DNA of 34,056 bases from a virus: the IMG/VR virus record IMGVR_UViG_3300038701_000547, positions 1 through 34,056 of that record. One strand, 5' to 3'. The notes under the pieces were generated by a model. That model was not told where the DNA came from. It saw only the letters and a list, made by a program, of their open reading frames with translations, and did not search any database. Below, in pieces: positions 20,153 through 34,056 of this stretch. The position numbers and the translations under genes are program-made. Positions within the stretch are counted from its first letter, which is position 1; each line of letters begins with the position of its first letter.

Positions 20153-20168
20153 GTCAGGGAATAAGACG

Positions 20169-21562: not shown

Positions 21563-21595
21563 ATGCCCCGGATGCCTGCCGGGGCATTTGCTTTT
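21563..21595 (+). terminator. Intrinsic terminator of the late operon
   Basis: ATGCCCCGG (21563-21571) and CCGGGGCAT (21579-21587), perfect 9-bp stem, 7-nt loop, followed by TTGCTTTT. It sits between the last + strand gene and the convergent leftward operon end. No T-run on the opposite strand, so it works mainly on + strand transcripts. Confidence 0.88.
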
Positions 21596-22267: not shown

Positions 22268-22446
22268 CTTTCCCACTCGTGGCATTCGACCGTGACGGCG
22301 ATCGACATGTCGTAGAGGTCCTGAACCCGCCCCTTCGACTTCCGCGCTCGGATGATCGCAGCCTCGATTCGGTTGCGCTCCGCATACAACTTCGTCAGCC
22401 GCCTCTTTGCGATTGGCCGCATGATGGGCTTGAGCAGCCACCTCAT
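22255..22446 (-). CDS. Small basic helical protein (63 aa)
   Basis: Very basic N-terminus (RWLLKPIMRPIAKRRLTKLYAERNR), then a helix and SIAVTVECHEWERW. Unrecognised. Start overlaps the GapR-like stop (ATGA) and end overlaps the HNH start, so it is translated as part of the chain. Basic charge suggests nucleic acid binding, but no motif is clear. Confidence 0.6.
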   Translation of the reverse strand: MRWLLKPIMRPIAKRRLTKLYAERNRIEAAIIRARKSKGRVQDLYDMSIAVTVECHEWERWLD

Positions 22447-22685
22447 AGCCCGAGGGCCTCCCGGTATACGGCTTCGATGGCCTCTTCCTCGGCGATGTCT
22501 TCCGCCCGCTTCTTGCGAAGGGCCACAATCTTGCTGATCGTCTTCGGGCAGTATCCGAGCGCCTTGGCTTCGGCATAGATTTCTTTCCGCGCCTCGGTCT
22601 CGTCGGCGATCCGCTCATTCTGGGATTCGATGCGCTCCACGATCTGGCGAAGCTGATCCGCTGCGGTGGTGTCGATGTTTTCCAT
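22443..22685 (-). CDS. GapR/DUF2312-like nucleoid-associated protein
   Basis: 80 aa. ADQLRQIVERIESQNERIADETEARKEIYAEAKALGYCPKTISKIVALRKK, then an acidic AEEEAIEAVYREALGL, matches the layout of DUF2312: a long N-terminal helix for dimerisation, a turn with G-Y/F, and a basic K-x4-LRK region. In alphaproteobacteria, GapR binds overtwisted DNA and stimulates topoisomerases. A phage copy could manage DNA ahead of replication forks. Starts just after the upstream stop (1-nt gap). Confidence 0.88.
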   Translation of the reverse strand: MENIDTTAADQLRQIVERIESQNERIADETEARKEIYAEAKALGYCPKTISKIVALRKKRAEDIAEEEAIEAVYREALGL

Positions 22686-22686
22686 G

Positions 22687-22950
22687 TCAGTTCCTCGGTG
22701 GTGCGGTTTCAGGAAGTGCCGCGATGGCGGCGCGTCCGGCGGCGGTCAGTCGCCAGTGGATGCCGTTCGTTTGGATGACGAATGGCGTCTCGGTCTCTGG
22801 GTCTTCAACGCGCTCGATCCATCCGCACTTCTCCAGGCTGATCATCGTCGGCCCCTTGAGGTCGAAATTCGCGGACAGGAACGGCGTATCCCCGACGCCT
22901 TCCAGCTTCTTGAGCGCTCGCCATCGTGTGAGTGTCAGTTTCGGTTTCAT
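22687..22950 (-). CDS. Winged-helix-like protein (87 aa)
   Basis: Starts at ATG 22950 with GGAGG 4 nt upstream, rather than 22971. Sequence LTRWRALKKLEGVGDTPFLSANFDLKGPTMISLEKCGWIERVEDPETETPF, then IHWRLTAAGRAAIAAL, fits a MarR/PadR-like winged helix with a beta wing. A DNA-binding role is inferred. Start overlaps the NinB stop by ATGA. Confidence 0.65.
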   Translation of the reverse strand: MKPKLTLTRWRALKKLEGVGDTPFLSANFDLKGPTMISLEKCGWIERVEDPETETPFVIQTNGIHWRLTAAGRAAIAALPETAPPRN

Positions 22951-23333
22951 GCTTCCTCCTTCTCGCTCCACTCGACACCATGTCGGGAGCCATATTCGTA
23001 GATGGATTCAATCAGTGCGCTCATCTGCGGCTTCGTCATCTTCGATGACCTGAAGCCAAGCGGGAAAGGTCCGGTGCCGTCCAGGCCATCGGCGAACTGA
23101 ACCTGGTGTCCGAGAGCGTGCAGAAATGCGCATTTCCATGTCTCCGGCGTCCACTTCCTGCCCTCTGGTTGAGCAAACGCGACATCGGTCAGCATTGCCC
23201 ACATCTTGGCATTCTGATCGAGCGTTCGGTCGCCTCCTGAGATGGTCAGGGTGGAGTATTCCGGCGCTGCGTCGATGAGCTGGTGGGCATAGAGACGCTG
23301 TCGTGGGCCAGTGAGGCGGACCTTGTATGGCAT
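22947..23333 (-). CDS. ninB: NinB-like recombination protein
   Basis: 128 aa, MPYKVRLTGPRQRLYAHQLIDAAP at the N-terminus. Core signature TLDQNAKMWAMLTDVAFAQPEGRKWTPETWKCAFLHALGHQV and the C-terminal SSKMTKPQMSALIESIYEYGSRHGVEW are characteristic of NinB (lambda Orf) proteins, which bind ssDNA/SSB and help RecF-pathway recombination. ATG 23333 overlaps the stop of the 57-aa gene. Operon partner of ERF. Confidence 0.92.
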   Translation of the reverse strand: MPYKVRLTGPRQRLYAHQLIDAAPEYSTLTISGGDRTLDQNAKMWAMLTDVAFAQPEGRKWTPETWKCAFLHALGHQVQFADGLDGTGPFPLGFRSSKMTKPQMSALIESIYEYGSRHGVEWSEKEEA

Positions 23334-23506
23334 CAGCCGCCGCCCCGCATCGTCCAGTGATCGATCATCACGCGCCGCACGCGCTCGACGCTCACGCCCA
23401 GCTCTTGGGCGGTTCGATCGACAACGTATATTGGACTGATATTGGCGATCCCGCCGCACTGTTCTTCGATGCGGTCATAGGCTTTGACGATGTCTGCATC
23501 GGTCAT
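23333..23506 (-). CDS. Small HTH-like protein (57 aa)
   Basis: Reads MTDADIVKAYDRIEEQCGGI, then ANISPIYVVDRTAQELGVSV and ERVRRVMIDHWTMRGGG. TAQELGVSVERVRRVMIDH is a plausible helix-turn-helix. Both ends overlap neighbouring genes by a few bases (TGATG at each), and the upstream AAGGAAG is a ribosome site. Below the usual 60-codon cutoff, so easily missed. Confidence 0.7.
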   Translation of the reverse strand: MTDADIVKAYDRIEEQCGGIANISPIYVVDRTAQELGVSVERVRRVMIDHWTMRGGG

Positions 23507-24198
23507 CAGTAAGCTTCCTTTTCGGTCCAGCGGCGCACGCCGGATATCTCGGTGTCCTTATGGTTCTTGGCGACGTAGGCCTCGATGAAGGCTGTCACCG
23601 CATCCCGATCATTCTGGGCGATCCAGTGCAGCGCGGCGCGGTGGTCCGCGATCTCGTAGCGGTGGACCGTCCGCATCCCTTTGACCTTGTCCTTCTGCTT
23701 GACGCTTGCTTCTTCGAGCGCGCGCTGCGCTTGGGCGGCCTTCTCGGCGGCTTCGCGCTGGGCGGCTATGTCCGAGGCATGTGCGGCCCGTGCGGCCTCC
23801 TGCCCCTCGCGCTTGGCCTTCTCTGCCGCTTCCCATGCTGCGCGCTTCTCTGCCTCCTTCTGGGCAGCCAGGGCGCGCTTGAACGGGTCTTGACATGCGA
23901 CCAAGCCTTTGATGATCCGGTCGAGGTCGTCCTGCGTAGGCTTCCAGCGCGCCACTTCTGCCTTCCAAGCCTCGTGCAGCGGCTTGGTGGCTTCGTCGCG
24001 CGCGGCGTTCAGGTCTTTCAGCGCGCCCTTGATCGTCTTGAGCAGGGCGTCGGTTGCCTTCAATTGGCCCTCGTTCTGGATCGGCTCTCCGTCGAGCCAG
24101 TTCTGCGCCTCATCGATGGCATCGCCATAAGGCGCGAGGGCTTCGTCAATCGGGTCTGGCGGGTTGTTGTGATTGCGGGGCGGTAGGGTGTCATTCAT
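23506..24198 (-). CDS. Coiled-coil early phage protein (230 aa)
   Basis: Starts at ATG 24198, with GGAGG 7 nt upstream; GTG 24204 is the alternative. N-terminal NNPPDPIDEALAPYGDAIDEAQNWLDGEP, then a basic helix region, a long coiled coil (AQKEAEKRAAWEAAEKAKREGQEAARAAH...) and a small C-terminal domain (MRTVHRYEIADHRAALHWIAQNDRDAVTAFIEAYVAKNHK). Proteins of this shape are common next to ERF and NinB. It may be an accessory of the recombinase; unproven. Confidence 0.7.
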   Translation of the reverse strand: MNDTLPPRNHNNPPDPIDEALAPYGDAIDEAQNWLDGEPIQNEGQLKATDALLKTIKGALKDLNAARDEATKPLHEAWKAEVARWKPTQDDLDRIIKGLVACQDPFKRALAAQKEAEKRAAWEAAEKAKREGQEAARAAHASDIAAQREAAEKAAQAQRALEEASVKQKDKVKGMRTVHRYEIADHRAALHWIAQNDRDAVTAFIEAYVAKNHKDTEISGVRRWTEKEAY

Positions 24199-24200
24199 GA

Positions 24201-24407
24201 TCACACCTCCTTTTCGATCAGAATCGCGTTGATCGGCTTACAGCGAAATGCTGGTTCTGGAACATCGACCTCGTGAACAGTCACTGGCTTGCGTCCGTCC
24301 TTGGTTTCGACCACGACAAAATCGCCGGGGGAAAGCTGTTCCTCCCCGTCATAGGTGTAGGTGTATGCCCGATAGTCTGCTGAGTTGAATTTCACTGAAA
24401 TGAACAT
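24201..24407 (-). CDS. Small beta-rich protein (68 aa)
   Basis: MFISVKFNSADYRAYTYTYD, then GEEQLSPGDFVVVETKDGRKPVTVHEVD. The pattern of strands around GDFVVVETKDGR recalls the small N-terminal domain of PriA-like proteins, but similarity is weak and by eye. GGAGG is 5 nt before ATG 24407. The stop is 2 nt before the next gene's start. Function unknown. Confidence 0.65.
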   Translation of the reverse strand: MFISVKFNSADYRAYTYTYDGEEQLSPGDFVVVETKDGRKPVTVHEVDVPEPAFRCKPINAILIEKEV

Positions 24408-24448
24408 TGGTTCCTCCGTTTGATGTGAAGATGGTTGGGCCGAAGCCC

Positions 24449-25060
24449 CTAGTATGGTATTTGGTCTCCATCGAGATCGTTGTTCGCTGGCTTGCTCATG
24501 CGCTCTTTGGCTGCGTCCTTGGCGGAGATCACGTCTGCGCTGGCCTGCACCGGCTTTGGAATTCGCCCCCAGCGCTCTTTCAGGTCGTCCAAGCTGTCGG
24601 CTTCTGAGAGATATTTCTTGGCCCGCTCAATCGCCTCTGCGTCGGTTTCCTGCGGCTTCTGCTGGCGCTGTTCCTGATTCGGAGGTGCCTTTGCCGCCGC
24701 GTTCCCGTCATCGTCTTCAGGAGCGATGCCAGCCATCGCCATTAGCCCGTATCTCCGAGCATAGGTCACTGCTGACCCATAGCCCTGCATGTCGTTCTTC
24801 GAGACGATCAGCGGAACCCGGCAGGTGAGGCTTTCGCCGCTCTCACCGTGGATCAGTATCGTCTCGACATAACGCCCGTGCTCGTCCTCTCCGGTAGGCT
24901 GAATCAATGCGATGCCAGCTTCATTGAGCGCAGGAAGGCAGGCGTCCATGACGTTCCCCAGATCGGCATACTTGCTGCGGAAGTGAGGGTTGCTGGCCTG
25001 CTTGAGCGCCTTGCCCATGTTGGCCTGCGCTTTTGCCAATGCTGTTGCGATACCCTTCAT
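24449..25060 (-). CDS. erf: ERF-family ssDNA annealing protein
   Basis: 203 aa. The core of P22 Erf-type recombinases is visible: KALKQASNPHFRSKYADLGNVMDACLPALNEAGIALIQ, and YGSAVTYARRYGLMAMAGIAPEDDDGN. The linker is Gln-rich, followed by a small C-terminal helical domain ending in DLDGDQIPY, whose acidic tip resembles an SSB-like tail. It promotes annealing and circularisation or recombination of phage DNA. GGAGGGG lies 7 nt upstream of ATG 25060. Confidence 0.93.
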   Translation of the reverse strand: MKGIATALAKAQANMGKALKQASNPHFRSKYADLGNVMDACLPALNEAGIALIQPTGEDEHGRYVETILIHGESGESLTCRVPLIVSKNDMQGYGSAVTYARRYGLMAMAGIAPEDDDGNAAAKAPPNQEQRQQKPQETDAEAIERAKKYLSEADSLDDLKERWGRIPKPVQASADVISAKDAAKERMSKPANNDLDGDQIPY

Positions 25061-25061
25061 C

Positions 25062-25715
25062 TCAAAACCCCTCCTTCAGCATCTTGCGGAGCTGCTGCTC
25101 CTGCGCTTCCCCTGCGGCGGCCCGTGTGGCGGCCCGTGTGGCGGTCCATGCGGAGGCCCATGCGGCGGCCCATGCGGCGGCCCGTGTGGCGGTCCATGCG
25201 GAGGCCCATGCGGCGGCCCATGCGGCGGCCCGTGTGGCGGCCCGTGTGGCGGCCCGTGTGGCGGCCCATGCGGCGGCCTCTGCGGCGGCCTCTGCGGCGT
25301 CCCGTGCGGCCTCTGCGGCGTCCCATGCGGCCTCTGCGGCTTCTGCGGCTTCTGCGGCGGCCTCTGCGGCGGCCCGTGCGGCGGCCCGCTCGTCAGGCGT
25401 TGCGGCGTCGTTCCGCAGCATGGCGATCTGATCGCGGATGCGTTTGTCGTTGGGGTATTGTGCCTCGTAGAGGTGCATCACTTGTTCTGCGCACCACGCC
25501 TGAAAATGGCGGGACAGGCGGTCGTGATCGGGTTGCATTGCGTGGGACAGCACCCACAGGGCGTCGTCCAGCCCGTTGCTGTTGAGGATGGCCATGAGCG
25601 GAAGAGGCTCGTCGTCGGCCTTGGTCTTGCCAAGGTGTGCTAGCAGTTTTTCCCAGCCATCCTTGCAAGGGGACGCCCTGCGGATGCGGGCAAGTGTCGT
25701 GGTGTAGGTGGTCAT
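25062..25715 (-). CDS. Ala-rich repeat phage protein (Imm5-like)
   Basis: 217 aa from ATG 25715. N-terminal LLAHLGKTKADDEPLPLMAILNSNGLDDALWVLSHAMQPDHDRLSRHFQAWCAEQVMHLYEAQYPNDK is a conserved phage module; similar sequences with Ala-rich tails have been called Imm5-like. Then ERAAARAAAEAAAEAAEAAEAAW and many A-A-x-A tetrads with W, R, T or S at the variable place, forming a long helix. DNA here is a 12-bp satellite. Function unknown; an immunity role is not shown. Confidence 0.7.
   Translation of the reverse strand: MTTYTTTLARIRRASPCKDGWEKLLAHLGKTKADDEPLPLMAILNSNGLDDALWVLSHAMQPDHDRLSRHFQAWCAEQVMHLYEAQYPNDKRIRDQIAMLRNDAATPDERAAARAAAEAAAEAAEAAEAAWDAAEAARDAAEAAAEAAAWAATRAATRAATRAAAWAAAWASAWTATRAAAWAAAWASAWTATRAATRAAAGEAQEQQLRKMLKEGF
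25114..25390. repeat. 12-bp tandem repeat within a coding region
   Basis: Roughly 23 units of consensus GCGGCCCRTGYG with variants GCGGTCCATGCG, GAGGCCCATGCG, GCGGCCTCTGCG. A 48-bp block (25129-25176) is exactly repeated at 25177-25224, which points to recent slippage. In frame on the minus strand each unit encodes a tetrapeptide such as AAWA or ATRA. Confidence 0.9.
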
Positions 25716-25813
25716 CAGAAGCCCACCCCGTGGCCGAGCACCAGCATCGCGTAGCCGGTCCCGAAGATGCACACGACCCCGAGGAAATCGCAGATGATGT
25801 CTTTGATGTTCAT
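25715..25813 (-). CDS. 32-aa single-span membrane protein
   Basis: Reads MNIKDIICDFLGVVCIFGTG, then YAMLVLGHGVGF. One transmembrane segment, ending just after a Gly-rich turn. Start overlaps the upstream 58-aa gene stop (ATGA) and the stop overlaps the start of the Ala-rich gene. GGGAAG precedes the ATG. Small membrane proteins like this recur in early operons of alphaproteobacterial phages; role unknown. Confidence 0.65.
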   Translation of the reverse strand: MNIKDIICDFLGVVCIFGTGYAMLVLGHGVGF

Positions 25814-25986
25814 GGTTCTTCCCTTTTCTTAATCTCGTATCCGAGCGCATCGGCGAGGTCGTTCATGGCTTCGTGCGCATTCTGAAGATGGAAATCGCGG
25901 CGACTGCCTTCTTCGGTCCAGTAGACCAGCAGCATGTTTTTAGCGATTTCTTCGGCATAGATGCGAGCGAGGATTGCTTTGCTCAT
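25810..25986 (-). CDS. Small hypothetical protein (58 aa)
   Basis: Begins MSKAILARIYAEEIAKNMLL, continues VYWTEEGSRRDFHLQNAHEA and ends MNDLADALGYEIKKREEP. Helical then short beta. No known motif. Start overlaps the zinc-finger gene stop by 4 nt (ATGA) and the end overlaps the next gene by 4 nt. Confidence 0.65.
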   Translation of the reverse strand: MSKAILARIYAEEIAKNMLLVYWTEEGSRRDFHLQNAHEAMNDLADALGYEIKKREEP

Positions 25987-26156
25987 TCTTCTTCCTCGTC
26001 AAACTCAACCTCGCCTGTTCCGTCGCACAGCTCGCAGGTGTCGTTCACGGTGTCGATGAAGCCGCCGTTGATGTAATCGACCACCGGCACGTCGTAGTCG
26101 CAGCGCCCGACACCTCCGCATTCGGGGCAGACGCGCATCTGCTCTTCGTGAGTCAT
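25983..26156 (-). CDS. Zinc-ribbon small protein (57 aa), first leftward gene
   Basis: Reads MTHEEQMRVCPECGGVGRCD, then YDVPVVDYINGGFIDTVNDT and CELCDGTGEVEFDEEEE. Two CxxC knuckles with G-G/G-T-G turns (CPECGGVG, CELCDGTG) make a DnaJ-like zinc fold. GGAGG lies 5 nt before ATG 26156. First gene after the leftward promoter; the acidic C-terminus could contact polymerase or host factors, but this is only a guess. Confidence 0.7.
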   Translation of the reverse strand: MTHEEQMRVCPECGGVGRCDYDVPVVDYINGGFIDTVNDTCELCDGTGEVEFDEEEE

Positions 26157-26277
26157 GGTTTCCTCCGGTGTGGGCTGCTGCCCGTTTCTTCTGAAACCCT
26201 TGTATCAACCCACCGCAACCCTTGCAACAAAAAAACTTGCGCTTGAGCCAAGATTCCGACCGCGCTAAGGTGCGGGC
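26157..26277. promoter_or_regulatory. Divergent early control region
   Basis: Leftward promoter on the minus strand: TTGCAA (26227-26222), 17-nt spacer, TACAAG (26204-26199). Rightward promoter: TTGAGC (26243-26248), 17-nt spacer, weak TAAGGT (26266-26271), whose start would fall at ATG 26278, suggesting a leaderless mRNA. AACCCTTG occurs twice, 26195-26202 and 26217-26224, 22 bp apart (two helical turns), overlapping the leftward -10 and -35, so these are candidate operators. Confidence 0.6.
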
Positions 26278-26475
26278 ATGGACCATGAAGCACACATCGC
26301 GCTGGCGGATCACATCCGCGCCAGGCGCATCAAGAAACAGGACTTTGCCAAGCTGGTCGGGGTCCGCAGCGAGCAACTGAGCCGGTGGCTTGCAGGCAAT
26401 GTGAAGCCGGAGCGATCCGCACGGATTCTCATCTCAATCGTCACTGACGGCGCAGTAAAACCGGAGGACTGGTGA
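26278..26475 (+). CDS. Cro/CI-like repressor (65 aa)
   Basis: ALADHIRARRIKKQDFAKLVGVRSEQLSRWLAGNVKPERSARILISIVTDGAVKPEDW contains a helix-turn-helix (QDFAKLVGVRSEQLSRWL), then an amidated-style C-terminal tail, with no cleavage or dimerisation domain as in lambda CI. It sits at the divergent control region and very likely controls the leftward promoter. No Shine-Dalgarno is visible, consistent with a leaderless start. Stop overlaps the next start. Confidence 0.8.
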   Translation: MDHEAHIALADHIRARRIKKQDFAKLVGVRSEQLSRWLAGNVKPERSARILISIVTDGAVKPEDW

Positions 26476-26843
26476 TGCCGATTTCTCGCAGATATGACCC
26501 CGACCTGATCCGGCAGATGCTGGCGGACGGAAAGACCGTCGCTGACATCGCCCACCACTACGGGGTGTCGAGGAAAATGATATACGACGCGCTGCGGCAC
26601 TATGGGCTGCGGCCTCAAGACCAGCCCGGATACCAGCGCAACCCGAAGCGTGAACAAGCTCTGAGGCTGGCGCGCGCCGGGTTCGCTGCTCGCCCGATCT
26701 CGATCATGCTGGACTGCCCAGAGAATACCGTCCGCTGGTGGATCGCCGCATCTGACGTGACTCGGAAGCCGGACATTCACATGCCGACGGTGCGGAACAG
26801 TCCCGATCTGGTCCGGCGGCGCTTTGTGGAGGCGATGCGGTGA
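26475..26843 (+). CDS. Two-HTH regulatory protein (122 aa)
   Basis: N-terminal IRQMLADGKTVADIAHHYGVSRKMIYDALRHYG is a strong homeodomain-like HTH. A second (ALRLARAGFAARPISIMLDCPENTVRWWI) follows. C-terminal basic tail RRRFVEAMR. GGAGG is 7 nt upstream of ATG 26475, which is preferred over GTG 26472. Early regulator, target unknown. The stop overlaps the methyltransferase GTG. Confidence 0.75.
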   Translation: MPISRRYDPDLIRQMLADGKTVADIAHHYGVSRKMIYDALRHYGLRPQDQPGYQRNPKREQALRLARAGFAARPISIMLDCPENTVRWWIAASDVTRKPDIHMPTVRNSPDLVRRRFVEAMR

Positions 26844-27406
26844 AGATACTTGTCGCCTGCGAATACTCCGGTCGCGTTCGAGATGCCTTCATCCGGTGCG
26901 GACACGACGCGGTGTCGTGCGACCTTTTTCCCAGCGAGGCACCAGGACCGCACTTCCAAGGCGACGTGATGCCGCTTCTCTTGGAGCCGTGGGATTTGGT
27001 CATCGCGCACCCCCCTTGCACTAGGCTCTGCAACAGCGGCGTCCGGTGGCTGGCAGAGCGCGACCTGTGGGATGACATGCGCGATGGCGCTGCGTTCTTC
27101 CTCGCCTGCCTCAACGCCAACGCTCCCCGCGTGGCGGTCGAAAATCCAGTCATGCACAAATATGCGCGCGAGATCGTCGGTCGCGGCCCGGACTTTACAG
27201 TTCAGCCGTGGCAGTTCGGAGACCCGGCGAAAAAGCGGACATGCTTTTGGACGCGTGGCTTGCAGCCTCTGCTGCCAACGTCTGACATGATGGCTGCGGA
27301 TGCGCGGGCTGACTGCCACCTCGCCAGCCCAGGCCCTGACAGATGGAAGGAACGTTCTCGCACATATCAGGGCATCGCTGACGCGATGGCGGCGCAATGG
27401 GGATGA
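26840..27406 (+). CDS. Short C5-cytosine methyltransferase-like protein
   Basis: 188 aa. AdoMet site motif ILVACEYSGRVRDAFIRCGH, then HPPCTRLCNSGVRW (motif IV-like, catalytic Cys in PPC) and VAVENPVMHKYA (motif VI ENP). The target recognition domain and motifs IX-X of a full-length enzyme (about 330-400 aa) are absent. The C-terminal section includes QPWQFGDPAKKRTCFWTRGLQPL. It could modify phage DNA, or be a binding-only relative. GTG start at 26840. Confidence 0.8.
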   Translation: MKILVACEYSGRVRDAFIRCGHDAVSCDLFPSEAPGPHFQGDVMPLLLEPWDLVIAHPPCTRLCNSGVRWLAERDLWDDMRDGAAFFLACLNANAPRVAVENPVMHKYAREIVGRGPDFTVQPWQFGDPAKKRTCFWTRGLQPLLPTSDMMAADARADCHLASPGPDRWKERSRTYQGIADAMAAQWG

Positions 27407-27762
27407 AGGTTCCGCCACGCTTCGCTCGTCGCGCATCCCGGAACAAATACGGCGCGAAGAAGACCCAGGTCGGCGAGATTACCTTTGATAGTCGCAAGGA
27501 AGCACTGCGATGGATGGAGCTTCAGATGCTGGAAAAGGCTGGCGAGATCAGCGACCTACAGCGACAAGTCAAGGTTGAACTCATTGGCCAGTATGCTCCG
27601 ATTTACACGCGGACGGGGCGGAAGATGAGATTGACGGCGGACTTTTCGTATGTCGAGGACGGCGTCCGAGTGCTAGAAGAGACCAAAGGATTCAGGACCC
27701 GAGACTACGAGGTCAGGGTGGCTGTGGCTCGGGCGATGGGACTGGAGATCAGAGAGACATGA
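27397..27762 (+). CDS. DUF1064-like phage endonuclease
   Basis: 121 aa. RRASRNKYGAKKTQVGEITFDSRKEALRWMELQMLEKAGEISDLQRQVK is the classical DUF1064 start; the PD-(D/E)xK core follows: ADFSYVEDGVRVLEETKGFRTRDYEVR with D, E and K placed for metal binding. Such enzymes are thought to be Holliday-junction or replication-linked nucleases. ATG 27403 is an alternative start. It overlaps the methyltransferase by 10 nt. Confidence 0.85.
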   Translation: MGMKVPPRFARRASRNKYGAKKTQVGEITFDSRKEALRWMELQMLEKAGEISDLQRQVKVELIGQYAPIYTRTGRKMRLTADFSYVEDGVRVLEETKGFRTRDYEVRVAVARAMGLEIRET

Positions 27763-27959
27763 GGGACACGCTACTGGCCTATCTGCGGATCATCCCTGCT
27801 GCCAGTGCTGAGATGATGGCAGACGATCTCGGGCTGTCTCACCGAGATGTGCAGGACGCGCTGCACGAGATGGACGACGCCGGGGACGTGATCCTCCGGA
27901 ATGGCTGGTATCGCCTTAGCGCGGCTGCAAAACAGCGGCTCGGAGAGATTTCCCGTTAA
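27759..27959 (+). CDS. Small winged-helix protein (66 aa)
   Basis: MRDTLLAYLRIIPAASAEMM, then ADDLGLSHRDVQDALHEMDDAGDVILRNGWYRLS is a compact winged helix with a hairpin wing. ATGA overlap with the nuclease. Likely DNA-binding; may act at the structured region that begins right after its stop. Confidence 0.7.
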   Translation: MRDTLLAYLRIIPAASAEMMADDLGLSHRDVQDALHEMDDAGDVILRNGWYRLSAAAKQRLGEISR

Positions 27960-27964
27960 AAAAC

Positions 27965-27997
27965 GGGCGGGGAGCGTGTGTCGCGCTCAACCCGCCC
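27965..27997 (+). promoter_or_regulatory. Two-part hairpin
   Basis: GGGCGGG (27965-27971) with CCCGCCC (27991-27997) encloses GAGCG (27972-27976) with CGCTC (27984-27988). No T-run follows. It lies 6 nt after the winged-helix stop; it may protect the 3' end of the upstream message. Confidence 0.6.
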
Positions 27998-28083
27998 AGT
28001 AGGTCAAGCGAGGGAGGAAGATGCCGCTTGACGTTCACAGAGGCATGAACGCCTCGACCGTATCCTCGACAGCTTGTCTGGGC

Positions 28084-28127
28084 AAGAAAAAACCCTCCGG
28101 CGCAGGATGGGGGGACGCCGGAGGGTT
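28084..28127 (-). terminator. Intrinsic terminator on the minus strand
   Basis: AACCCTCCGGCG (28091-28102) and CGCCGGAGGGTT (28116-28127) form a 12-bp perfect stem with a 13-nt loop. Read on the minus strand the stem is followed by TTTTCTT, continuous with two T of the stem (TTTTTTCTT). On the + strand no T-run follows. No minus-strand gene is present to the right, so it would end an unannotated antisense transcript. Confidence 0.75.
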
Positions 28128-28183
28128 GAAGCAGGATGCCGGTCATGGCAAGGTGCGAGTGTTCAAACCGCAGGGAAAGACGT

Positions 28184-28201
28184 AGCACGTGGGGGCGTGC
28201 T
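28184..28201 (+). promoter_or_regulatory. Hairpin
   Basis: AGCACG (28184-28189) and CGTGCT (28196-28201), 6-bp stem with TGGGGG loop. Part of the structured leader of the replication gene. Confidence 0.45.
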
Positions 28202-28211
28202 GCACAATCCC

Positions 28212-28229
28212 TGCCCTAACCTGAGGGCA
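28212..28229 (+). promoter_or_regulatory. Hairpin immediately before the replication gene
   Basis: TGCCCT (28212-28217) and AGGGCA (28224-28229), loop AACCTG, ending 4 nt before ATG 28234. The right arm holds GAGGG, the probable ribosome site, so folding would hide it. Candidate translational control of replication initiation. Confidence 0.5.
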
Positions 28230-28233
28230 AGAA

Positions 28234-28944
28234 ATGGGCCACGGTCCCTACGTTCAATTCTACACATCTGACTTCCTGGCTGGCACCGGCGGCATGACCG
28301 CCTCGACCAAGGGCGTCTACATCACAATTATCTGCATGATCTACGAGGCTGAGGCTCCGCTGCCGCAGTCTTGGGACAGCCTTGCGAGGCAATGCGGATG
28401 CACTCTCCCGGCGTTCAAGAAGGCCATTCAGGAGCTTCAGCGCGACGGCAAGATCGAGGTCACGGATGCTGGAATCTGGTCTCCGAAGTGCGAGAAACAC
28501 CTCACGCTTCGTCGCGAGCGGCAGAGTAGCGCGAAGGCCGCTGCCGAAAGCAGGTGGCAAAAAACCAAACAAAATCAAAGGCAGGACGATGCGACCGCAT
28601 TGCGAACGCAATGCCAACCAGAACCAGAACCAGAACCATATAAAAAAGAAGAACCTAAAGGTTCTTCCAAAAAAGGTTCGCGGCTTCCGCGTGACTGGTC
28701 CCTTCCGCAGGAGTGGTCAGACTGGGCGCTGGCGCAGGGAATGGACGAACTTTCATCTCGCAGGGAAGCGGATCGGTTCCGGGACTACTGGGTGAGCGCT
28801 CCCGGCCAGCGCGGCGTAAAGCTGGACTGGCAGGCCGTCTGGCGGAACTGGGTTCGCAAGTGGATCGATGAGCGGGATCGGCGAGGATATAACTCCCCGC
28901 CTCGTCCCCGCATCCGCGCCCGCCTGCCGGAGGAATACCAGTGA
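28234..28944 (+). CDS. O-like replication initiation protein (DUF1376-type N-terminus)
   Basis: 236 aa. Residues 1-95 (GHGPYVQFYTSDFLAGTGGMTASTKGVYITIICMIYEAEAPLPQ...) are a DUF1376-like winged-helix domain used by phage replication proteins. A low-complexity linker follows (RQSSAKAAAESRWQKTKQNQRQ, PEPEPEPYKKEEPKGSSKKGS). The C-terminal part has WSDWALAQGMDELSSRREADRFRDYWVSA and VWRNWVRKWIDERDR, as in O-like primosome loaders. DNA of the linker looks like an origin. Stop overlaps the next gene by ATGA. Confidence 0.85.
   Translation: MGHGPYVQFYTSDFLAGTGGMTASTKGVYITIICMIYEAEAPLPQSWDSLARQCGCTLPAFKKAIQELQRDGKIEVTDAGIWSPKCEKHLTLRRERQSSAKAAAESRWQKTKQNQRQDDATALRTQCQPEPEPEPYKKEEPKGSSKKGSRLPRDWSLPQEWSDWALAQGMDELSSRREADRFRDYWVSAPGQRGVKLDWQAVWRNWVRKWIDERDRRGYNSPPRPRIRARLPEEYQ
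28553..28680. other. Putative replication origin inside the O-like gene
   Basis: A-rich stretch in GC-rich DNA. It contains: an 18-bp palindrome GCATTGCG-AA-CGCAATGC (28597-28614); consecutive AACCAG hexamers (28615-28637); A6 runs (28642-28647, 28669-28674); a perfect inverted repeat GAAGAACC-TAAA-GGTTCTTC (28648-28667). The position within an O-type gene's linker is the same as for lambda ori. Confidence 0.6.
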
Positions 28945-29552
28945 CCGACGACCGCAGCAGATACGTTTCGCAAGCGTTCAACCGCTGGCTCGAGCGATAT
29001 AGCCCGCCCCGTGCGATGGCTGAGAACGAGCGGGCGCAGCAGGATGAGGCCGACGCGCTGATGAGGGCGGTTCTGAGCTTCGCGCCGCAGCGGGGGTTCC
29101 AGGAATGGACGGGCCTTGCTCTGGATGCCCTTTCGGAGGCTTGCCAGACCAGAGCGTGGCCGACCGTGGCCGATGTCAGGAAGGCCATGAAGGGGGTGCG
29201 CTACGTCCCCGAGGGCCTTGCAGCGTCGGCGACCTTCGACCCGGTGGCAATCAACGCGAACAGAATGTCACGCGGCGAGCCAGTCCCTGAGCGGTTCCTG
29301 TGGGGGCGCTGGGCGCAGCGGATGATGGAAGCCGGTGTTCAGAAGCGGACGCTCGACGAATACCGCAAGGCGCTGCACGCCGCCGTCTTCCAGAGCATGG
29401 GCGAGGACGGGGCCATGAAGTGGGCCGAGGACGTGAAGGCGCGGCATCGGGAGGACCTCGACGCGCTCCGTGACGAGCAGGCGGGTCGGGTCAAACTTGG
29501 TCGGCAAGCGATGCCGCTTCCGCAGCAGATCGCGGCCTACGACTGGGATTGA
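28941..29552 (+). CDS. Putative replication partner (P-like)
   Basis: 203 aa, mostly helical. N-terminal YVSQAFNRWLERYSPPRAMAENERAQQDEADALMRAVLSFAPQRG, then GFQEWTGLALDALSEACQTRAWPTVADVRKAM. Later RFLWGRWAQRMMEAGVQKRTLDEYRKALHAAVFQSMGEDGAMKWAEDVKARHRED. Similar layouts are encoded after O-like genes, where they may load the host helicase. No Walker motif is present, so it is not a DnaC-type ATPase. ATGA-coupled to the replication gene. Confidence 0.55.
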   Translation: MTDDRSRYVSQAFNRWLERYSPPRAMAENERAQQDEADALMRAVLSFAPQRGFQEWTGLALDALSEACQTRAWPTVADVRKAMKGVRYVPEGLAASATFDPVAINANRMSRGEPVPERFLWGRWAQRMMEAGVQKRTLDEYRKALHAAVFQSMGEDGAMKWAEDVKARHREDLDALRDEQAGRVKLGRQAMPLPQQIAAYDWD

Positions 29553-29639
29553 GCTTCACAGGCGAATTGCGGCAGGCGCAATATAGTTGGACCGGCAGAT
29601 GTCGGTGAGATAGGGTCAACGGACCAGAAGGAGGATGCA
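29553..29639. other. Intergenic leader of the SSB gene
   Basis: 87 nt. A TATAGT (29582-29587) could be a -10 box but no good -35 stands 17 nt upstream. AAGGAGG (29630-29636) is a very strong ribosome site for ATG 29640. Confidence 0.4.
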
Positions 29640-30017
29640 ATGATCAGCATGACAATCGCGGGGAACGTGGGCCGAGATGCTCAGCTTCGCAGCACGCAGG
29701 AAGGCGATCCGGTGCTCGGGTTCTCGGTCGCAGTGGATATGGGCAAGGACAAGAACGGCAGCAAGCGAGATGCCGTCTGGGTAAACTGCTCAATCTGGGG
29801 CAAGCGGGCTGAGAGCCTTCAGACCTACATCACCAAGGGCACGAAGTTGGTTTTGACTGGCCGTCCCGGCGTGAACGTCTACGAGGGCAAAGGCTCGCTG
29901 ACGCTGTCGGTGAACGATCTCACCTTCATGGGCGGATCGCGGCGGAGCGACGAGGACCGTGGAGGATATGATGATCCGCCGCCGCGTGATGATCTCGACG
30001 ACGGAATACCCTTCTGA
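29640..30017 (+). CDS. ssb: Single-stranded DNA-binding protein
   Basis: 125 aa. OB-fold signature: MTIAGNVGRDAQLRSTQEGDPVLGFSVAVDMGKDKNGSKRDAVWVNCSIWGKRAESLQTYITKGTKLVLTGRPGVNVYEGKGSLTLSVNDLTFMG is laid out in the right order for bacterial-type SSB. A Gly/Asp-rich linker follows, and an acidic tail ending DDLDDGIPF, the partner-binding tip. Protects phage ssDNA during replication and recombination, with ERF and NinB as likely partners. ATG 29640 is best by Shine-Dalgarno. Confidence 0.95.
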   Translation: MISMTIAGNVGRDAQLRSTQEGDPVLGFSVAVDMGKDKNGSKRDAVWVNCSIWGKRAESLQTYITKGTKLVLTGRPGVNVYEGKGSLTLSVNDLTFMGGSRRSDEDRGGYDDPPPRDDLDDGIPF

Positions 30018-30026
30018 GGGTCGCAC

Positions 30027-30263
30027 ATGGCACGCATCGACATCAGCAAGCTGAGCAGCGGCATGTTCCTGACCACGCTCGACAAGATCGAGCCGGGGTC
30101 TGAGGTGGTCTACCACGTCGGCAAATACGCGGCAGGCCCGCACAAGAAGGACGCCCTGACCGCTCATGAGCTTGGCCACTGCCTGCTCTATCAGCGCAGG
30201 CTGGACGTGGGCGTGTTCGCCTACATCGCCCGCAAGCCGAACGCGGCGAGGGCCAGCAAGTGA
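30027..30263 (+). CDS. Hypothetical early protein (78 aa)
   Basis: IDISKLSSGMFLTTLDKIEPGSEVVYHVGKYAAGPHKKDALTAHELGHCLLYQRRLDVGVFAYIARKPN. An HELGH motif is present, but the surroundings (short protein, beta strands around it) do not support a metalloprotease. No other known family recognised. GAGGG precedes the ATG; end overlaps the next GTG start. Confidence 0.6.
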   Translation: MARIDISKLSSGMFLTTLDKIEPGSEVVYHVGKYAAGPHKKDALTAHELGHCLLYQRRLDVGVFAYIARKPNAARASK

Positions 30264-30505
30264 CCCCGTGGCGTCCCGGTGATCCTGTCGGACGAGGTGT
30301 CGTCTACCTCCCCGATCAAAAGACGCGGGACGCCTATTGGCGAGCCGTCAACGAGGCGCTGATCGACAGCGCGGCACGGCACGTCATCAGCCTTCCGAGC
30401 ATCGAGGCTCGCAGGGAATACATTAAGCGGCACCGGCACAGCGAGGCGCTCAAGGCGCGGGTCTCTGAACTGTGGCGGCACAGGAACAGAGAACGAGGCC
30501 AATGA
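30260..30505 (+). CDS. Hypothetical early protein (81 aa)
   Basis: GTG start at 30260 overlaps the preceding stop (GTGA). TPWRPGDPVGRGVVYLPDQKTRDAYWRAVNEALIDSAARHVISLPSIEARREYIKRHRHSEALKARVSELWRHR is a helical basic protein; likely nucleic acid associated. No family recognised. A hairpin-forming stretch (CCCCTGGCG...CGCTGGGG) lies just after it at 30518-30545. Confidence 0.6.
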   Translation: MTPWRPGDPVGRGVVYLPDQKTRDAYWRAVNEALIDSAARHVISLPSIEARREYIKRHRHSEALKARVSELWRHRNRERGQ

Positions 30506-30561
30506 TGGCCCGTCCCCTGGCGGCGTCGGACCCCGTCGCTGGGGGTAACTGATAGGAGAGG

Positions 30562-30774
30562 ATGGCATACAAAATGAGCGAAGTTGATTGCTTATCAAGC
30601 GCGATTAACGCCGAAAGAGCGTGGTATATGCTGGCATTTCAGATTGCCCGTTCAGCGCTTGATGAAAGGTTCGGATGCGAACACGCGCACGCCGCAGCGC
30701 TTCGGGCTATCGATCAAAGACTAGCCGCTATTTATGCGGTAAACCCAGATTGGAGGCCGCGCAATGAAGACTGA
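30562..30774 (+). CDS. Small helical protein (70 aa)
   Basis: AYKMSEVDCLSSAINAERAWYMLAFQIARSALDERFGCEHAHAAALRAIDQRLAAIYAVNPDW. Two helices, no motif recognised. GATAGGAGAGG sits against ATG 30562; the in-frame ATG 30574 is an alternative. From here to about 31000 the DNA is less GC-rich than the neighbours, hinting at separate acquisition. Confidence 0.6.
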   Translation: MAYKMSEVDCLSSAINAERAWYMLAFQIARSALDERFGCEHAHAAALRAIDQRLAAIYAVNPDWRPRNED

Positions 30775-31033
30775 TTTTATGGTCTGCATGACTTGTTGCG
30801 GATCAGGCCAAACGCCCGTTGCTATGTCATTTGATGGGCCAAATCACCGACCAGCAAGGATTTCAAACGGAAAATGCCCAGCCTGCGCAGGGGGCACGGT
30901 ATGTCCGTGGTGCCTTTACGAGAGGTGGATGCACAAAGACAGCAACGGGCTTCCCGCTTGCGGTCACTGCGGATGGTCCGCGCAACGCGACAAAGACCGC
31001 GCGGGAAAAGAGTTAAGGAAAAAGAACCAATGA
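30764..31033 (+). CDS. Zinc-knuckle protein (89 aa)
   Basis: CxxC pairs: C-M-T-C-C, C-P-A-C, C-P-W-C and C-G-H-C in CPACAGGTVCPWCLYERWMHKDSNGLPACGHCGWS, giving a DnaJ-like double zinc fold. Basic C-terminal tail KDRAGKELRKKNQ. Probably binds nucleic acid or protein; role unknown. Overlaps both neighbours by a few bases. Confidence 0.65.
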   Translation: MKTDFMVCMTCCGSGQTPVAMSFDGPNHRPARISNGKCPACAGGTVCPWCLYERWMHKDSNGLPACGHCGWSAQRDKDRAGKELRKKNQ

Positions 31034-31200
31034 CCCGCCGCATCGAGGAAGTGGATGCCAAGCTGGCGAAGGCGGTGGAGGCGTTGGAGGAGGATTGGTT
31101 CCTTTTGACTGTGCCGCTACTCAACTACGAGCCTAAGCCGGAAGAGCCGGGTCTGCGGCGCATAAAATCCACCATTGCAGAACTGAAGGAGGACCAATGA
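31030..31200 (+). CDS. Small helical protein (56 aa)
   Basis: Starts at ATG 31030 (overlapping stop in ATGA); an in-frame ATG at 30874 lies deep inside the zinc-knuckle gene and is unlikely. MTRRIEEVDAKLAKAVEALE, then EDWFLLTVPLLNYEPKPEEP and TIAELKEDQ at the end. Shares KAVEAL and xAELKE with the next gene, so the two may be paralogues. Confidence 0.6.
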   Translation: MTRRIEEVDAKLAKAVEALEEDWFLLTVPLLNYEPKPEEPGLRRIKSTIAELKEDQ

Positions 31201-31535
31201 CCAAGATGTATATGCGCGGCAGCGTCTACTACGGCACGGCAGCCGAGATGATGGACCGCATCGATGAACTGGAGGCCAAGCAACAAAAAACTTTCCAGAT
31301 GTATGTGGACGCCAATGAGGCTCGGATAGATGCAGAAGCCAAGCTATCAGAGAGCGAAGCTCTCTTGGAGAAGGCGGTGGAGGCTTTGCGGTTCTATGCC
31401 GAGGGTGAGTGGCCGGAAGATTATCCCGGCGGCGTCTTGTATGCTGCGGGTGATGATACCCCTGAGTTTAAGACGCACCTTGATTACGGTGACAAAGCCC
31501 GCACCACCCTCGCAGAACTGAAGGAACAGAAATGA
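31197..31535 (+). CDS. Coiled-coil phage protein (112 aa)
   Basis: Coiled coil over residues about 15-65 (AAEMMDRIDELEAKQQKTFQ, NEARIDAEAKLSESEALLEKAVEAL), then a small domain FYAEGEWPEDYPGGVLYAAGDDTPEFKTHLDYGDKARTTLAELKEQK. Similar endings (GDKAR.TLAELK) are frequent in small early phage proteins. Function unknown. ATGA-coupled at both ends. Confidence 0.65.
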   Translation: MTKMYMRGSVYYGTAAEMMDRIDELEAKQQKTFQMYVDANEARIDAEAKLSESEALLEKAVEALRFYAEGEWPEDYPGGVLYAAGDDTPEFKTHLDYGDKARTTLAELKEQK

Positions 31536-31972
31536 TCCTCAACGGACGCCAACTCTACGACGCCCGCCCGCTCTCCCCGATGTCAGGCATGAAGCTCCGC
31601 GAGCATGGGGTGAGCTATGGGCTGGCAGAAGTGGGTTATGATGTCAGGATCAAGCAGTCGATCACGCTCCACCCATTCCGGCGCTTTGCCCTAGCCAGCA
31701 CCATCGAGCGGTTCACAATCCCCGAGAACATGGTGGCGGTCATCCATGACAAGAGCACGAATATCCGGCGCGGACTGATGGTCGGCAACTCTGTGGCTGA
31801 GCCTGGATGGCAGGGCTGGTTGACGCTTGAGCTGTTCTACTTCGGCTGGAAGCCGCTGCACATCAAGGCGGGGACCGGCATAGCGCAGGCGATCTTTCAC
31901 CAGCTTGCATCCCCAGCGCGCTATGTTGGGCGCTATCAGGACCAGCCAGATCGCCCCGTGGAGGCCAGATGA
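31532..31972 (+). CDS. dcd: dCTP deaminase / dUTPase-fold protein
   Basis: 146 aa. Family pattern: SYGLAEVGYDVRI (early strand with GxDxR), VAVIHDKSTNIRRGL (S and R of the substrate loop), NSVAEPGWQGWLTLELFYFG with the catalytic-site Glu in LTLEL, and GTGIAQAIFHQL. It would turn dCTP into dUTP (or dUTP into dUMP), adjusting nucleotide pools for phage DNA. It is shorter than E. coli Dcd (193 aa). Its exact substrate cannot be read from the sequence. Confidence 0.85.
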   Translation: MILNGRQLYDARPLSPMSGMKLREHGVSYGLAEVGYDVRIKQSITLHPFRRFALASTIERFTIPENMVAVIHDKSTNIRRGLMVGNSVAEPGWQGWLTLELFYFGWKPLHIKAGTGIAQAIFHQLASPARYVGRYQDQPDRPVEAR

Positions 31973-32244
31973 ACCGCTCCGACATCCTCGACACCGCGAA
32001 GGAATACGTCACACGCGATAGGGCGGCCACACACGGCGATGCCGAGGACAACTTCACCCAGATAGCCGAAGTGTGGACATGGTGGCTCAGCGAGCGCCTC
32101 AGCGCCCCTGTGACCGCATACGACGTGGCGCAGATGATGAGCCTGTTCAAAAAGGCCCGTGCGAAGGCGAACAAGGGACACCTAGACAATTTTGTGGACG
32201 ATGCGGCTTATTCCGCGCTGGCGGGTGAGATAGCCCATCGGTGA
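31969..32244 (+). CDS. DUF6378-like phage protein (91 aa)
   Basis: DILDTAKEYVTRDRAATHGDAEDNFTQIAEVWTWWLSERLSAPVTAYDVAQMMSLFKKARAKANKGHLDNFVDDAAYSALAGEI is the layout of DUF6378 (all-helical, H-G-D and D-N-x-x-D-x-A-x-Y motifs like the MazG/dUTPase-type helical NTP hydrolases). Next to a deaminase, a nucleotide-pool role is plausible. ATGA overlap with it. Last gene before the late promoter. Confidence 0.75.
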   Translation: MNRSDILDTAKEYVTRDRAATHGDAEDNFTQIAEVWTWWLSERLSAPVTAYDVAQMMSLFKKARAKANKGHLDNFVDDAAYSALAGEIAHR

Positions 32245-32259
32245 TCGCGCACAAACCGC

Positions 32260-32288
32260 TTGCAACGGTAGGCCGCTTGCCCTATAAA
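32260..32288 (+). promoter_or_regulatory. Strong sigma70-like promoter at the start of the late block
   Basis: TTGCAA (32260-32265), 17-nt spacer, TATAAA (32283-32288). Start near 32295; the leader has hairpin GGGCC-ACGGA-GGCCC (32297-32311) and an AGGAG ribosome site before ATG 32332. TTGCAA is also the -35 of the leftward promoter. Confidence 0.7.
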
Positions 32289-32331
32289 TAAGTCATGGGC
32301 CACGGAGGCCCGCCACACAGGAGATAGACAA

Positions 32332-32595
32332 ATGACTCACTTCAGCGAAACCGAAGCCGCCGCCGAGTTCATCGCCAGCGCCGACAGCCGCTGCACCAGC
32401 CTTCAAGTGATGGAGGCAATCGCCTTCTTTGCCCGCGACGCCCAAGAGGCCGAGAGCCTGTGGAATGGCGATGGGATTGGCGAAATCGCCCACATCTCGG
32501 ACATTTGGGAACACGCCACCGGCAATGGCCGACTGGATGATGCCGACCTTTACTGGGGTGATCGCACGCTTGCGGAAATCGTGACCGAGTTCTGA
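32332..32595 (+). CDS. Hypothetical acidic protein (87 aa)
   Basis: FSETEAAAEFIASADSRCTSLQVMEAIAFFARDAQEAESLWNGDGIGEIAHISDIWEHATGNGRLDDADLYWGDRTLAEIVTEF. Helical, acidic; no recognised motif. First gene behind the strong promoter, so early in whatever programme it controls. CAGGAGATAGACAA precedes the start. Confidence 0.65.
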   Translation: MTHFSETEAAAEFIASADSRCTSLQVMEAIAFFARDAQEAESLWNGDGIGEIAHISDIWEHATGNGRLDDADLYWGDRTLAEIVTEF

Positions 32596-32598
32596 CGC

Positions 32599-32802
32599 AT
32601 GACCCCCGCAGCATTCAAAGAGGCCCGGCACACGCTGGGCCTCACCCTCTCACAAGCTGCGCGCCTGCTAGGCTATAGGGGTAAACACGCCATGCAGCAA
32701 ATTCGCCAGATGGAAAGCGGAGACAAGTCAATCCGTCCCCCACAAATCAGGCTGATGCGGGCGTATCTTGATGGCTACAGACCGGAGGATTGGCCGAGAT
32801 GA
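32599..32802 (+). CDS. XRE-type HTH protein (67 aa)
   Basis: FKEARHTLGLTLSQAARLLGYRGKHAMQQIRQMESGDKSIRPPQIRLMRAYLDGYRPEDW is a classic phage XRE helix-turn-helix, with QMESGDKSIRPPQIRLMRAYLDG as the last helices. Like the repressor at 26278, it ends in PEDW. Candidate regulator of late genes. ATG 32599 lies 3 nt after the preceding stop. Confidence 0.8.
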   Translation: MTPAAFKEARHTLGLTLSQAARLLGYRGKHAMQQIRQMESGDKSIRPPQIRLMRAYLDGYRPEDWPR

Positions 32803-32832
32803 CCACCGCATGGCAAGAACGCCGCGATTCCA

Positions 32833-32861
32833 TTGCCTTTTTTGCGTGAAGCGCATACCAT
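32833..32861 (+). promoter_or_regulatory. Possible promoter before the HNH gene
   Basis: TTGCCT (32833-32838), 17-nt spacer, TACCAT (32856-32861); 4 of 6 at each box. The start would fall at the HNH ATG 32869, which lacks a Shine-Dalgarno, so a leaderless mRNA is possible. Confidence 0.4.
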
Positions 32862-32868
32862 TTGATGG

Positions 32869-33210
32869 ATGGACAAGTGGCGCACCCCAGAGGCCGAAGC
32901 CTATCGCAGGCTCTACCAGACCAAGCGCTGGAAGCACCTGCGCGAGGTCACCCTGCTGCGCGATCTGTTCACCTGCCAGCGATGCGGATGCCACCTCAAG
33001 CGAGGACGCACCCACCCGCAGTCCGCCGTCGTCCACCACATCAAAGCCCACAAGGGCGACCTGGAACTGTTCTACGACAGCGGCAACCTCCAGTCCGTCT
33101 GTTGGACCTGCCACTCGGGCGCGATCCAATCCGAAGAAGCCCGAGGCTATAGCACCGAGATCGGGCAGGACGGATGGCCCGTCGATGCCAACCACCCAGG
33201 AGTCGGATGA
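32869..33210 (+). CDS. HNH endonuclease next to the terminase
   Basis: 113 aa. Zinc cysteines C36/C39 (TCQRCG) and C78/C81 (VCWTC), catalytic H56-H57 (VVHHIKAH) and N73 (SGNLQS) are in the normal order, with H82 after the last pair. N-terminal YRRLYQTKRWKHLREVTLLRD is typical of the phage type. HNH proteins next to TerS/TerL are often needed for specific cleavage at packaging sites. Start ATG 32869, no ribosome site; stop overlaps the next gene. Confidence 0.92.
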   Translation: MDKWRTPEAEAYRRLYQTKRWKHLREVTLLRDLFTCQRCGCHLKRGRTHPQSAVVHHIKAHKGDLELFYDSGNLQSVCWTCHSGAIQSEEARGYSTEIGQDGWPVDANHPGVG

Positions 33211-33995
33211 TGGACCAGATGTTCAAGAATAAGCTCGACTGGGGAATCCAGGTCGCGCGCGGAAACATCCTGAACGCAGAGGTGATACACCGCTTCGGCA
33301 TGGCCACGGTCGGCACTGATCTTGTCCCGGTATCTGATCTGTTGGTCTACAGGACGCCACAGGTGGCAGGAGCGACCGCGCTGCGCATCAAGGCAGATGG
33401 CAATGCCAACGACACGGCTGATGGCTCTGGCGCGCGCTCTGTGCGCCTCACTGGCTTAAACGCCACCGGCGACGTGGTGAGCGAGACCATCGCCACCGCA
33501 GGCGCGTCCGCATCAGCCGCAACATCCGCACAGTTCATCAGGCTGTTCGATGCCGAGGTGGTGGATAGCGGAACATACGGCACCCAAGCGGCAGGCTCAC
33601 ACGCTGGCGACATCGTGATTGAGAACGCAACGGGCGGAACAGATTGGGCGAAGATACCGATCAACGGCTTTCCCACAGCCAACACCAGCAATGTTAGCTA
33701 CACCATCCCGCGCGGCTACACTGGGTTTATCGAGGGCATCAGCATCGCGGTCGAAGGCGCAAAGCTGGTGGACATCCTGATGCTATCACGCGGCGGAGTG
33801 CTGGACACTGAGGCACCCTACCAGCCAGTGCAGCGCGTGCAGGAGTGGATTGGCATCGCCAACACATATGTGGACACCTTCACCATGCCACTGCTCTTCC
33901 CCGAGCTGACAGATGTCGGGATGCTCGGCAAAGTCAGCAACGGCACAGCCGCTGTCATGGTGCAGATGGACATCCTCCTGCTGCGCAACGAATGA
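33207..33995 (+). CDS. Putative virion structural protein (262 aa)
   Basis: Starts at ATG 33207 (or ATG 33210), overlapping the HNH stop; AGGAG (33198-33202) is just upstream. An in-frame ATG at 33174 is less likely. Beta-rich, with TALRIKADGNANDTADGSGARSVRLTGLNATGDVVSETIATAG, then INGFPTANTSNVSYTIPRGYTGFIEGISIAVEGAK and a C-terminal GTAAVMVQMDILLLRNE. The type is known from several marine and alphaproteobacterial phages near terminase genes; a head or tail surface role is likely. It is followed by the small terminase start. Confidence 0.7.
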   Translation: MMDQMFKNKLDWGIQVARGNILNAEVIHRFGMATVGTDLVPVSDLLVYRTPQVAGATALRIKADGNANDTADGSGARSVRLTGLNATGDVVSETIATAGASASAATSAQFIRLFDAEVVDSGTYGTQAAGSHAGDIVIENATGGTDWAKIPINGFPTANTSNVSYTIPRGYTGFIEGISIAVEGAKLVDILMLSRGGVLDTEAPYQPVQRVQEWIGIANTYVDTFTMPLLFPELTDVGMLGKVSNGTAAVMVQMDILLLRNE

Positions 33996-34016
33996 GGGGG
34001 GGAGGGGTCAAAACAA

Positions 34017-34056
34017 ATGCGACCGGCCCCGAACCGGCGCGCGGGCTCTTCCTTCC
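34017..34056 (+). CDS. terS: Terminase small subunit, 5' start (continues at base 3)
   Basis: ATG at 34017 follows a strong purine Shine-Dalgarno (GGGGGGAGGGG, about 33996-34007) and opens a frame that reaches the last base with one base left over. Placing base 1 after base 34056 keeps the frame and leads into the terminase small subunit ending at 461. Total length is 501 nt, exactly 167 codons. This is the main evidence that the window is a whole circularly permuted genome. Confidence 0.75.
   Translation, partial: MRPAPNRRAGSSF

Follow-up and report, generated by a model that had tools for sequence, protein, structure and literature searches.

A conserved structured element before phage replication genes, with putative leftward small RNAs

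Introduction

Does a phage whose early operon is read rightward encode a small RNA that is read leftward, just before its replication gene? Phage λ makes such an RNA, OOP, whose target decays in an RNase III-dependent way. OOP is transcribed leftward from pO as a short antisense RNA to cII, and replication responds to the activity of pO (PMC3985674). OOP has been regarded as peculiar to lambdoid phages, and the purpose of its promoter in replication has long been debated (PMC3985674). The question was raised anew by a 274-bp structured stretch in the viral record IMGVR_UViG_3300038701_000547, where a hairpin resembling a terminator on the minus strand only led to the original prediction of an OOP-like RNA ending near position 28085. 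We refer to the whole stretch of DNA analyzed, 34,056 nucleotides, as the window; the coordinates of its features are collected in Table 1.

Results

Layout of the early region

In the window, the gene calls from 26278 to 34056 are all rightward, bearing out the original remark that no leftward gene lies to the right of the hairpin. To its left, genes for an Erf-like annealing protein, an exonuclease and NinB belong to a leftward recombination operon (26156 to 22255). The rightward operon starts at 26278 with a repressor-like gene and is divergent from the recombination operon, so that the early region is of the λ type. The 66-aa gene that precedes the structured stretch gave no PHROG match. 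Inside the replication gene, at 28648-28667, is a further minus-strand terminator-like inverted repeat, which adjoins tandem CCAGAA repeats in the window. Such repeats, with differing stem sequences, stand at nearly equal gene positions in seven phages, that of the window and six with related DUF1376 genes (about nt 414-457): Pkon1, DB2, pCB2047-C, L077, L105 and L109. This repeat is a candidate for a replication origin or for an additional leftward terminator.

Table 1. Features of the structured stretch and its surroundings (window positions)
Feature	Position	Strand	Remarks
DUF1064 gene	27397..27762	+	upstream of the stretch; query for relatives
66-aa gene	27759-27959	+	after the DUF1064 gene, before the structured stretch
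Structured stretch, 274 bp	between first part of rightward early operon and replication gene		
P1, putative terminator hairpin of proposed sRNA-A	27958..27997	-	GGGCGGG-UU-GAGCG...CGCUC-CCCGCCC, then G + U6
P2 hairpin	28003..28032	-	predicted fold; GUCAAGCG...CGCUUGAC, loop GCAUCUUCCUCCCU, anti-Shine-Dalgarno-like
5' hairpin of proposed sRNA-A	28033..28050	-	predicted fold; GUUCA...UGAAC, identical in four relatives
Proposed sRNA-A	28050 to about 27958	-	about 90 nt; 5' hairpin, P2 with CUUCCUCCC loop, bulged terminator with U6
Candidate promoter of sRNA-A	28057..28085	-	TTGCCC (28085-28080), 17 nt, TACGGT (28062-28057); start about 28050
12-bp hairpin, putative intrinsic terminator	28085..28127	-	C-rich loop; would end sRNA-B and insulate the sRNA-A promoter on its upstream side
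Proposed sRNA-B	28172 to about 28084	-	about 88 nt; ends at the 12-bp hairpin, C-rich terminator loop
Candidate promoter of sRNA-B	28179..28207	-	TTGTGC (28207-28202), 17 nt, TACGTC (28184-28179); start about 28172; by inspection, weak
Hairpin TGCCCT/AGGGCA	28212..28229	+	predicted to sequester the Shine-Dalgarno of the replication gene (28234) in the sense mRNA
Replication gene, DUF1376 replication-initiation/primosomal type	28234..28944	+	Pfam PF07120, E 7e-15
λ pO-like sigma-70 match, alternative leftward promoter	28257..28286	-	GTGCCA-18-TAGAAT; inside the gene start

Two terminator-like hairpins on the minus strand

The hairpin that raised the question is an inverted repeat of AACCCTCCGGCG (28091-28102) and CGCCGGAGGGTT (28116-28127), 100% complementary around a 13-nt loop, and it is bordered by TTTTCTT when read leftward and by GAAGC when read rightward. 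The T6CTT tail first described is thus partly right: the T-run is present, and two of its six Ts are the last two bases of the stem. With a terminator defined by 11 bp or more of perfect stem and 5 or more Ts in 8, the hairpin is the only such site on either strand of the window, and none of 100 dinucleotide shuffles contains one, which upholds the claim of a perfect 12-bp, terminator-like hairpin on the minus strand only. Conservation had been proposed as a check. Three relatives retain the 12-bp stem; in L011 a C-G pair has changed to U-A in a compensated way, and the terminator loop has the anti-Shine-Dalgarno-type motif CUCCUCCC.

A second minus-strand-only terminator-like structure, absent from the original prediction, is the hairpin at 27965-27997 with A6 at 27958-27963, which we call P1. 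It has a 2-nt bulge, in which the plus-strand A at 27990 is invariant across the family described below. Written as the plus strand, the pattern in relatives is GGGCGGG-GAGCG...CGCTC-NA-CCCGCCC, followed by the P2 hairpin with its GGGAG-type loop.

The P1-P2 element is conserved before unrelated replication genes

Relatives sought with the DUF1064 protein comprised 12 viral contigs of 68-90% identity, and the structure after the DUF1064 gene was kept in all 12, though the replication gene behind it was exchanged. A P2-only pattern located 36 viral loci, and in every one of these that was searched with the covariance model R1, P1 was detected as well; a compensated version of P1, GGGCAGGGAACG...CGTTCAACCTGCCC, is among the loci detected by R1. 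The model matches the window once, at 27962-28029, with 51.3 bits. A P1-only pattern found 79 loci, as against one with the inner stem scrambled. About 100 viral contigs carry the element ahead of replication genes that are not homologous to one another. The genes directly after it encode DUF1376/primosomal proteins, DnaD-like loaders, O-like HTH_36 proteins, other initiators and Prim-Pol primases, a set of initiators, helicase loaders or primases from unrelated families.

Across 53 distinct rows, double changes are seen at 11 of the 17 pairs, and both the covariation score and the number of double-change pairs exceed those of all 500 shuffles and of the slid controls. The window's own clade (L010, L011 and L174) is 97% identical over P1-P3, as compared with 78-85% in the flanking genes. 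In the divergent members L216-L219 the stem of P2 is wholly replaced, and the GGGAGAA loop and the CCACAAC loop are kept; across relatives in general the loop motif of P2 is retained while the stems turn over. About half of the P1 copies lack a strong U-tract, particularly those before Prim-Pol genes. Judged by these sequence comparisons, the P1-P2 structure is under selection.

The element had no match at the gathering score in Rfam release 15, including C4 antisense RNA (RF01695). The exact P1 pattern gave mostly chance matches over 85k cellular genomes, where the element is nearly absent; among 385 genomes of one class, only a phage contig already known carries it. BLAST of the element against cultured phages did not find it, nor did the R1 model in four related phages. 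A shared 3' motif, GGTGCGAG...TAGCAC, was rejected, being present only in the L011 contig.

Several individual occurrences deserve mention. L174 is a contig in a Phycisphaerae MAG and a close relative of the window's phage; its placement in that genome is probably a binning error. Many Lentzea genomes show the P1 pattern near contig ends (contigs L132, L138 and others), perhaps as a repeat or rRNA region. In L060, L065, L076 and L095, P1-P2 lies opposite to the flanking genes, between two leftward genes and co-directional with the proposed RNA strand; the orientation in L060, L065 and L095 fits a minus-strand RNA, though chance matches may be included.

Strand of the structures

An unbiased set of leaders was assembled through an HTH_36 replication protein, 64 loci falling into 27 leader clusters. 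Intrinsic terminators were found on the minus strand in 20 of the 27 clusters and on the plus strand in none. At control ORF starts, some of them spurious and not matched to intergenic leaders as a set, the counts were 18/600 and 24/600, respectively (Fisher p about 1e-21). The stems differ widely in sequence from leader to leader, and for most of them the minus-strand fold is the better one, a strand count that is biased because the scan accepts G-U on the strand being read. Going by these leaders, leftward terminators before replication genes recur.

Beside P1, an A-run (at least 5 of 8) stands on the 5' side of the plus strand in 21 of 41 relatives and a 3' T-run in one. Wobble pairs, counted by a symmetric rule that treats G-U on either strand alike, gave no strand signal in P1 (2:2); in the P2 stems of the family, 40 pairs are G-U on the minus strand only and 2 on the plus strand only. 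By our own count, the P2 wobble pairs stem from roughly a dozen separate families. From this asymmetry, P2 is a structure that pairs in the minus-strand sense. The P2 wobble, the terminator asymmetry and the promoter-like sites described below together lead us to read the locus as encoding one or two leftward small RNAs.

The terminators might instead act by themselves, keeping leftward transcription that arises in the replication region, whether antisense or spurious, out of the early genes, with no discrete functional small RNA. Their tandem arrangement on the minus strand (28127 to 28085 and 27997 to 27958), the further example inside the replication gene and their recurrence in other phages suit this explanation, which leaves the conserved P2 hairpin with its C-rich loop, the invariant bulge and the promoter-like sites unexplained; we consider it improbable.

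The sense-strand hairpin and a possible sense-strand leader

The right part of the stretch has a different strand preference. The hairpins noted originally besides the 12-bp one are real, in that the plus-strand fold of 27955-28260 has a z of -4.2 and TGCCCT/AGGGCA covers the ribosome site. These hairpins had been offered as support for RNA-based control. In 25 relatives an analogous hairpin, with helices adjoining the start codon, has 35 plus-strand G-U pairs and 2 A-C pairs. Going by these relatives, the ribosome-site hairpin belongs to the sense mRNA. With the left part in the minus-strand sense and the right part in the plus-strand sense, we infer that each strand has a use, with a leftward RNA at the left and the ribosome-site hairpin of the mRNA at the right.

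Could the entire region, then, be a cis-acting leader, in which P1, P2 and the downstream hairpins of the early mRNA control translation of the replication gene through Shine-Dalgarno sequences held in hairpins and coupling to a leader ORF, with the minus-strand terminator look being incidental? The G-U pairing just described hides the Shine-Dalgarno in the 3' half of the leader, and RNAalifold of the 25-relative alignment is better on the plus strand (-59.9 vs -48.2). An ATG comes after the P2 loop in many relatives, giving the loop the look of a plus-strand ribosome site; a 16-aa ORF starts there, and its stop codon shares the sequence ATGA with the replication-gene start. On the other side, the plus-strand signal is confined to the downstream helices, outside P1-P2; the P2 wobble and the terminators favor the minus strand; and 25 relatives keep the P2 loop without an ATG start after it. 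The kept residues of the 16-aa ORF (YH, KV) fall on a candidate leftward -10 and on the Shine-Dalgarno/-35, and its conservation may therefore be at the DNA level. A structured sense leader was at first our main reading and was weakened by the terminator, A-run and P2 wobble asymmetries; we now regard it as unlikely.

The 16-aa ORF with the ATGA overlap is seen, for example, in L062, L066, L082, L091, L105, L108 and L115. An ORF crossing the region at 28021-28185 was rejected, its start codon being missing in relatives.

The two stem-loops, about 65-70 nt in the early operon, also recall the put RNA antiterminators of HK022 (PMC9378689), and a put-like element would act on the sense transcript of the early operon. 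The put sites are read on the sense strand, occur in two copies, one pair of stem-loops for each early operon, and act on RNA polymerase, whereas the window has a single copy and the P2 wobble points to the opposite strand, so that a put-like role is highly improbable.

Candidate leftward promoters

The original prediction reported no convincing minus-strand promoter. It had overlooked two candidates, both weak, from which the proposed sRNA-A and sRNA-B would start (Table 1). The first scores 5.4 bits in the window (z about 1.6); its hexamers are kept in L011 and L174 and are TTGCTC/TACGGT in L010. Equivalents of the second are TTGTGC/TACCTC in L011 and TTGCGG/TACCTT in L010 and L174. Beside the element, sigma-70-like sites read leftward exceed what shuffles give, with a Stouffer value of 5.3 as against -1.1 for the plus strand. 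The 43 elements are not independent, and since the rows are related, the pooled z values make the evidence look stronger than it is. The best leftward site was taken in each of 40 leaders, and about half of these would give a start between -44 and -49, counted from the replication gene.

The alternative site inside the gene start, GTGCCA-18-TAGAAT, is the sole match in 20000-34056 and was not seen in L010 or L011; shuffles yield 3.5 such sites by chance. A leftward promoter at the HTH_36 gene start codon was rejected: it derives from the MSHYM codons, which show no clear codon bias (CAT 17 vs 19.2 expected, TAT 26 vs 20.8, CAA 19 vs 21.6). Separately, in L223, L226, L228 and L246 the terminator hairpin is immediately followed by TTGCAA-17-TACACT/TACAAT, which matches a rightward promoter well and lies at about -61 to -67 relative to the replication gene.

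Discussion

We think it somewhat probable, from the sequence comparisons, that the phage encodes one or two small RNAs, each of about 90 nt and read leftward, before the replication gene. sRNA-A would be transcribed leftward from about 28050 and terminated near 27958, at P1; sRNA-B would run from about 28172 to the 12-bp hairpin, near 28084, and this terminator would also shield the sRNA-A promoter. The original prediction of an RNA ending at 28085 is therefore displaced in part: the most widely conserved predicted RNA, with P2 and P1, ends near 27958, and the 28085 hairpin may end a second RNA or insulate the first. Fold z values are -5.5 for sRNA-A and -4.9 for sRNA-B, and those of the homologous predicted RNAs of L062 and L024 are -4.6 and -5.7.

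The C-rich loops may bind Shine-Dalgarno sequences, whether in the replication-gene leader, in other phage genes or in host genes, and such pairing in trans would limit or time the synthesis of the replication protein. Target prediction by duplex energy gave no convincing single target, the best scores coming from G-rich starts. Because the small RNAs are complementary to the sense mRNA leader, antisense pairing or convergent transcription in cis is also possible.

A loop of this kind has precedents in alphaproteobacteria. The alpha-r14 (NfeR1) and AbcR sRNAs have hairpin loops with a CCUCCUCCC-type anti-Shine-Dalgarno motif on stems that are free to vary, and one alpha-r14-type sRNA with CCUCCUCCC loops silences an mRNA at the ribosome site (PMC3927594, PMC10746234). 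The anti-Shine-Dalgarno motif in a hairpin loop is shared with P2. The alphaproteobacterial sRNAs are host genes, alpha-r14 with three such hairpins, whereas the RNA proposed here would be phage-encoded, with one such hairpin and a terminator; a search for homology gave no Rfam family match at threshold. The covariance model of the suhB/mmgR family (RF00519) matches the minus strand weakly at 27950-28051, the extent of the predicted sRNA-A; its 13.8 bits (E 2.9) fall below the gathering score of 41, and the element is not a member.

How far does the likeness to OOP go? As in λ with OOP, pO and tO, a leftward terminator stands just ahead of the replication gene, and the short RNA that would end there is here a predicted one; the early operon with this gene is read rightward, and a recombination operon diverges from it leftward. 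Thus the place and the direction given in the original prediction stand, together with the excess of minus-strand terminators in the leaders. The target and the promoter do not: no recognizable cII adjoins the element, and predicted sRNA-A ends at the stop codon of the upstream 66-aa gene, leaving the body of that gene without overlap. The λ pO lies at the start of the replication gene, whereas the candidate promoters here are in the leader, and the architecture of a hairpin with an anti-Shine-Dalgarno-like loop plus a terminator is another difference. With place and direction matching and target gene, promoter position and architecture differing, the locus may work like OOP, and we claim no membership.

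More tentatively, and less probably than not, the element may represent an undescribed, widespread class of phage small RNAs, placed before the exchangeable replication modules of tailed phages, keeping an anti-Shine-Dalgarno loop as stems turn over and timing replication by acting in trans on phage or host ribosome sites. If leftward small RNAs with conserved anti-ribosome-site loops are general before unrelated initiators, antisense control of the onset of replication would be a common phage strategy, one for which many systems would offer tests; a structured-RNA family that Rfam lacks would gain a position, a strand and a predicted function.
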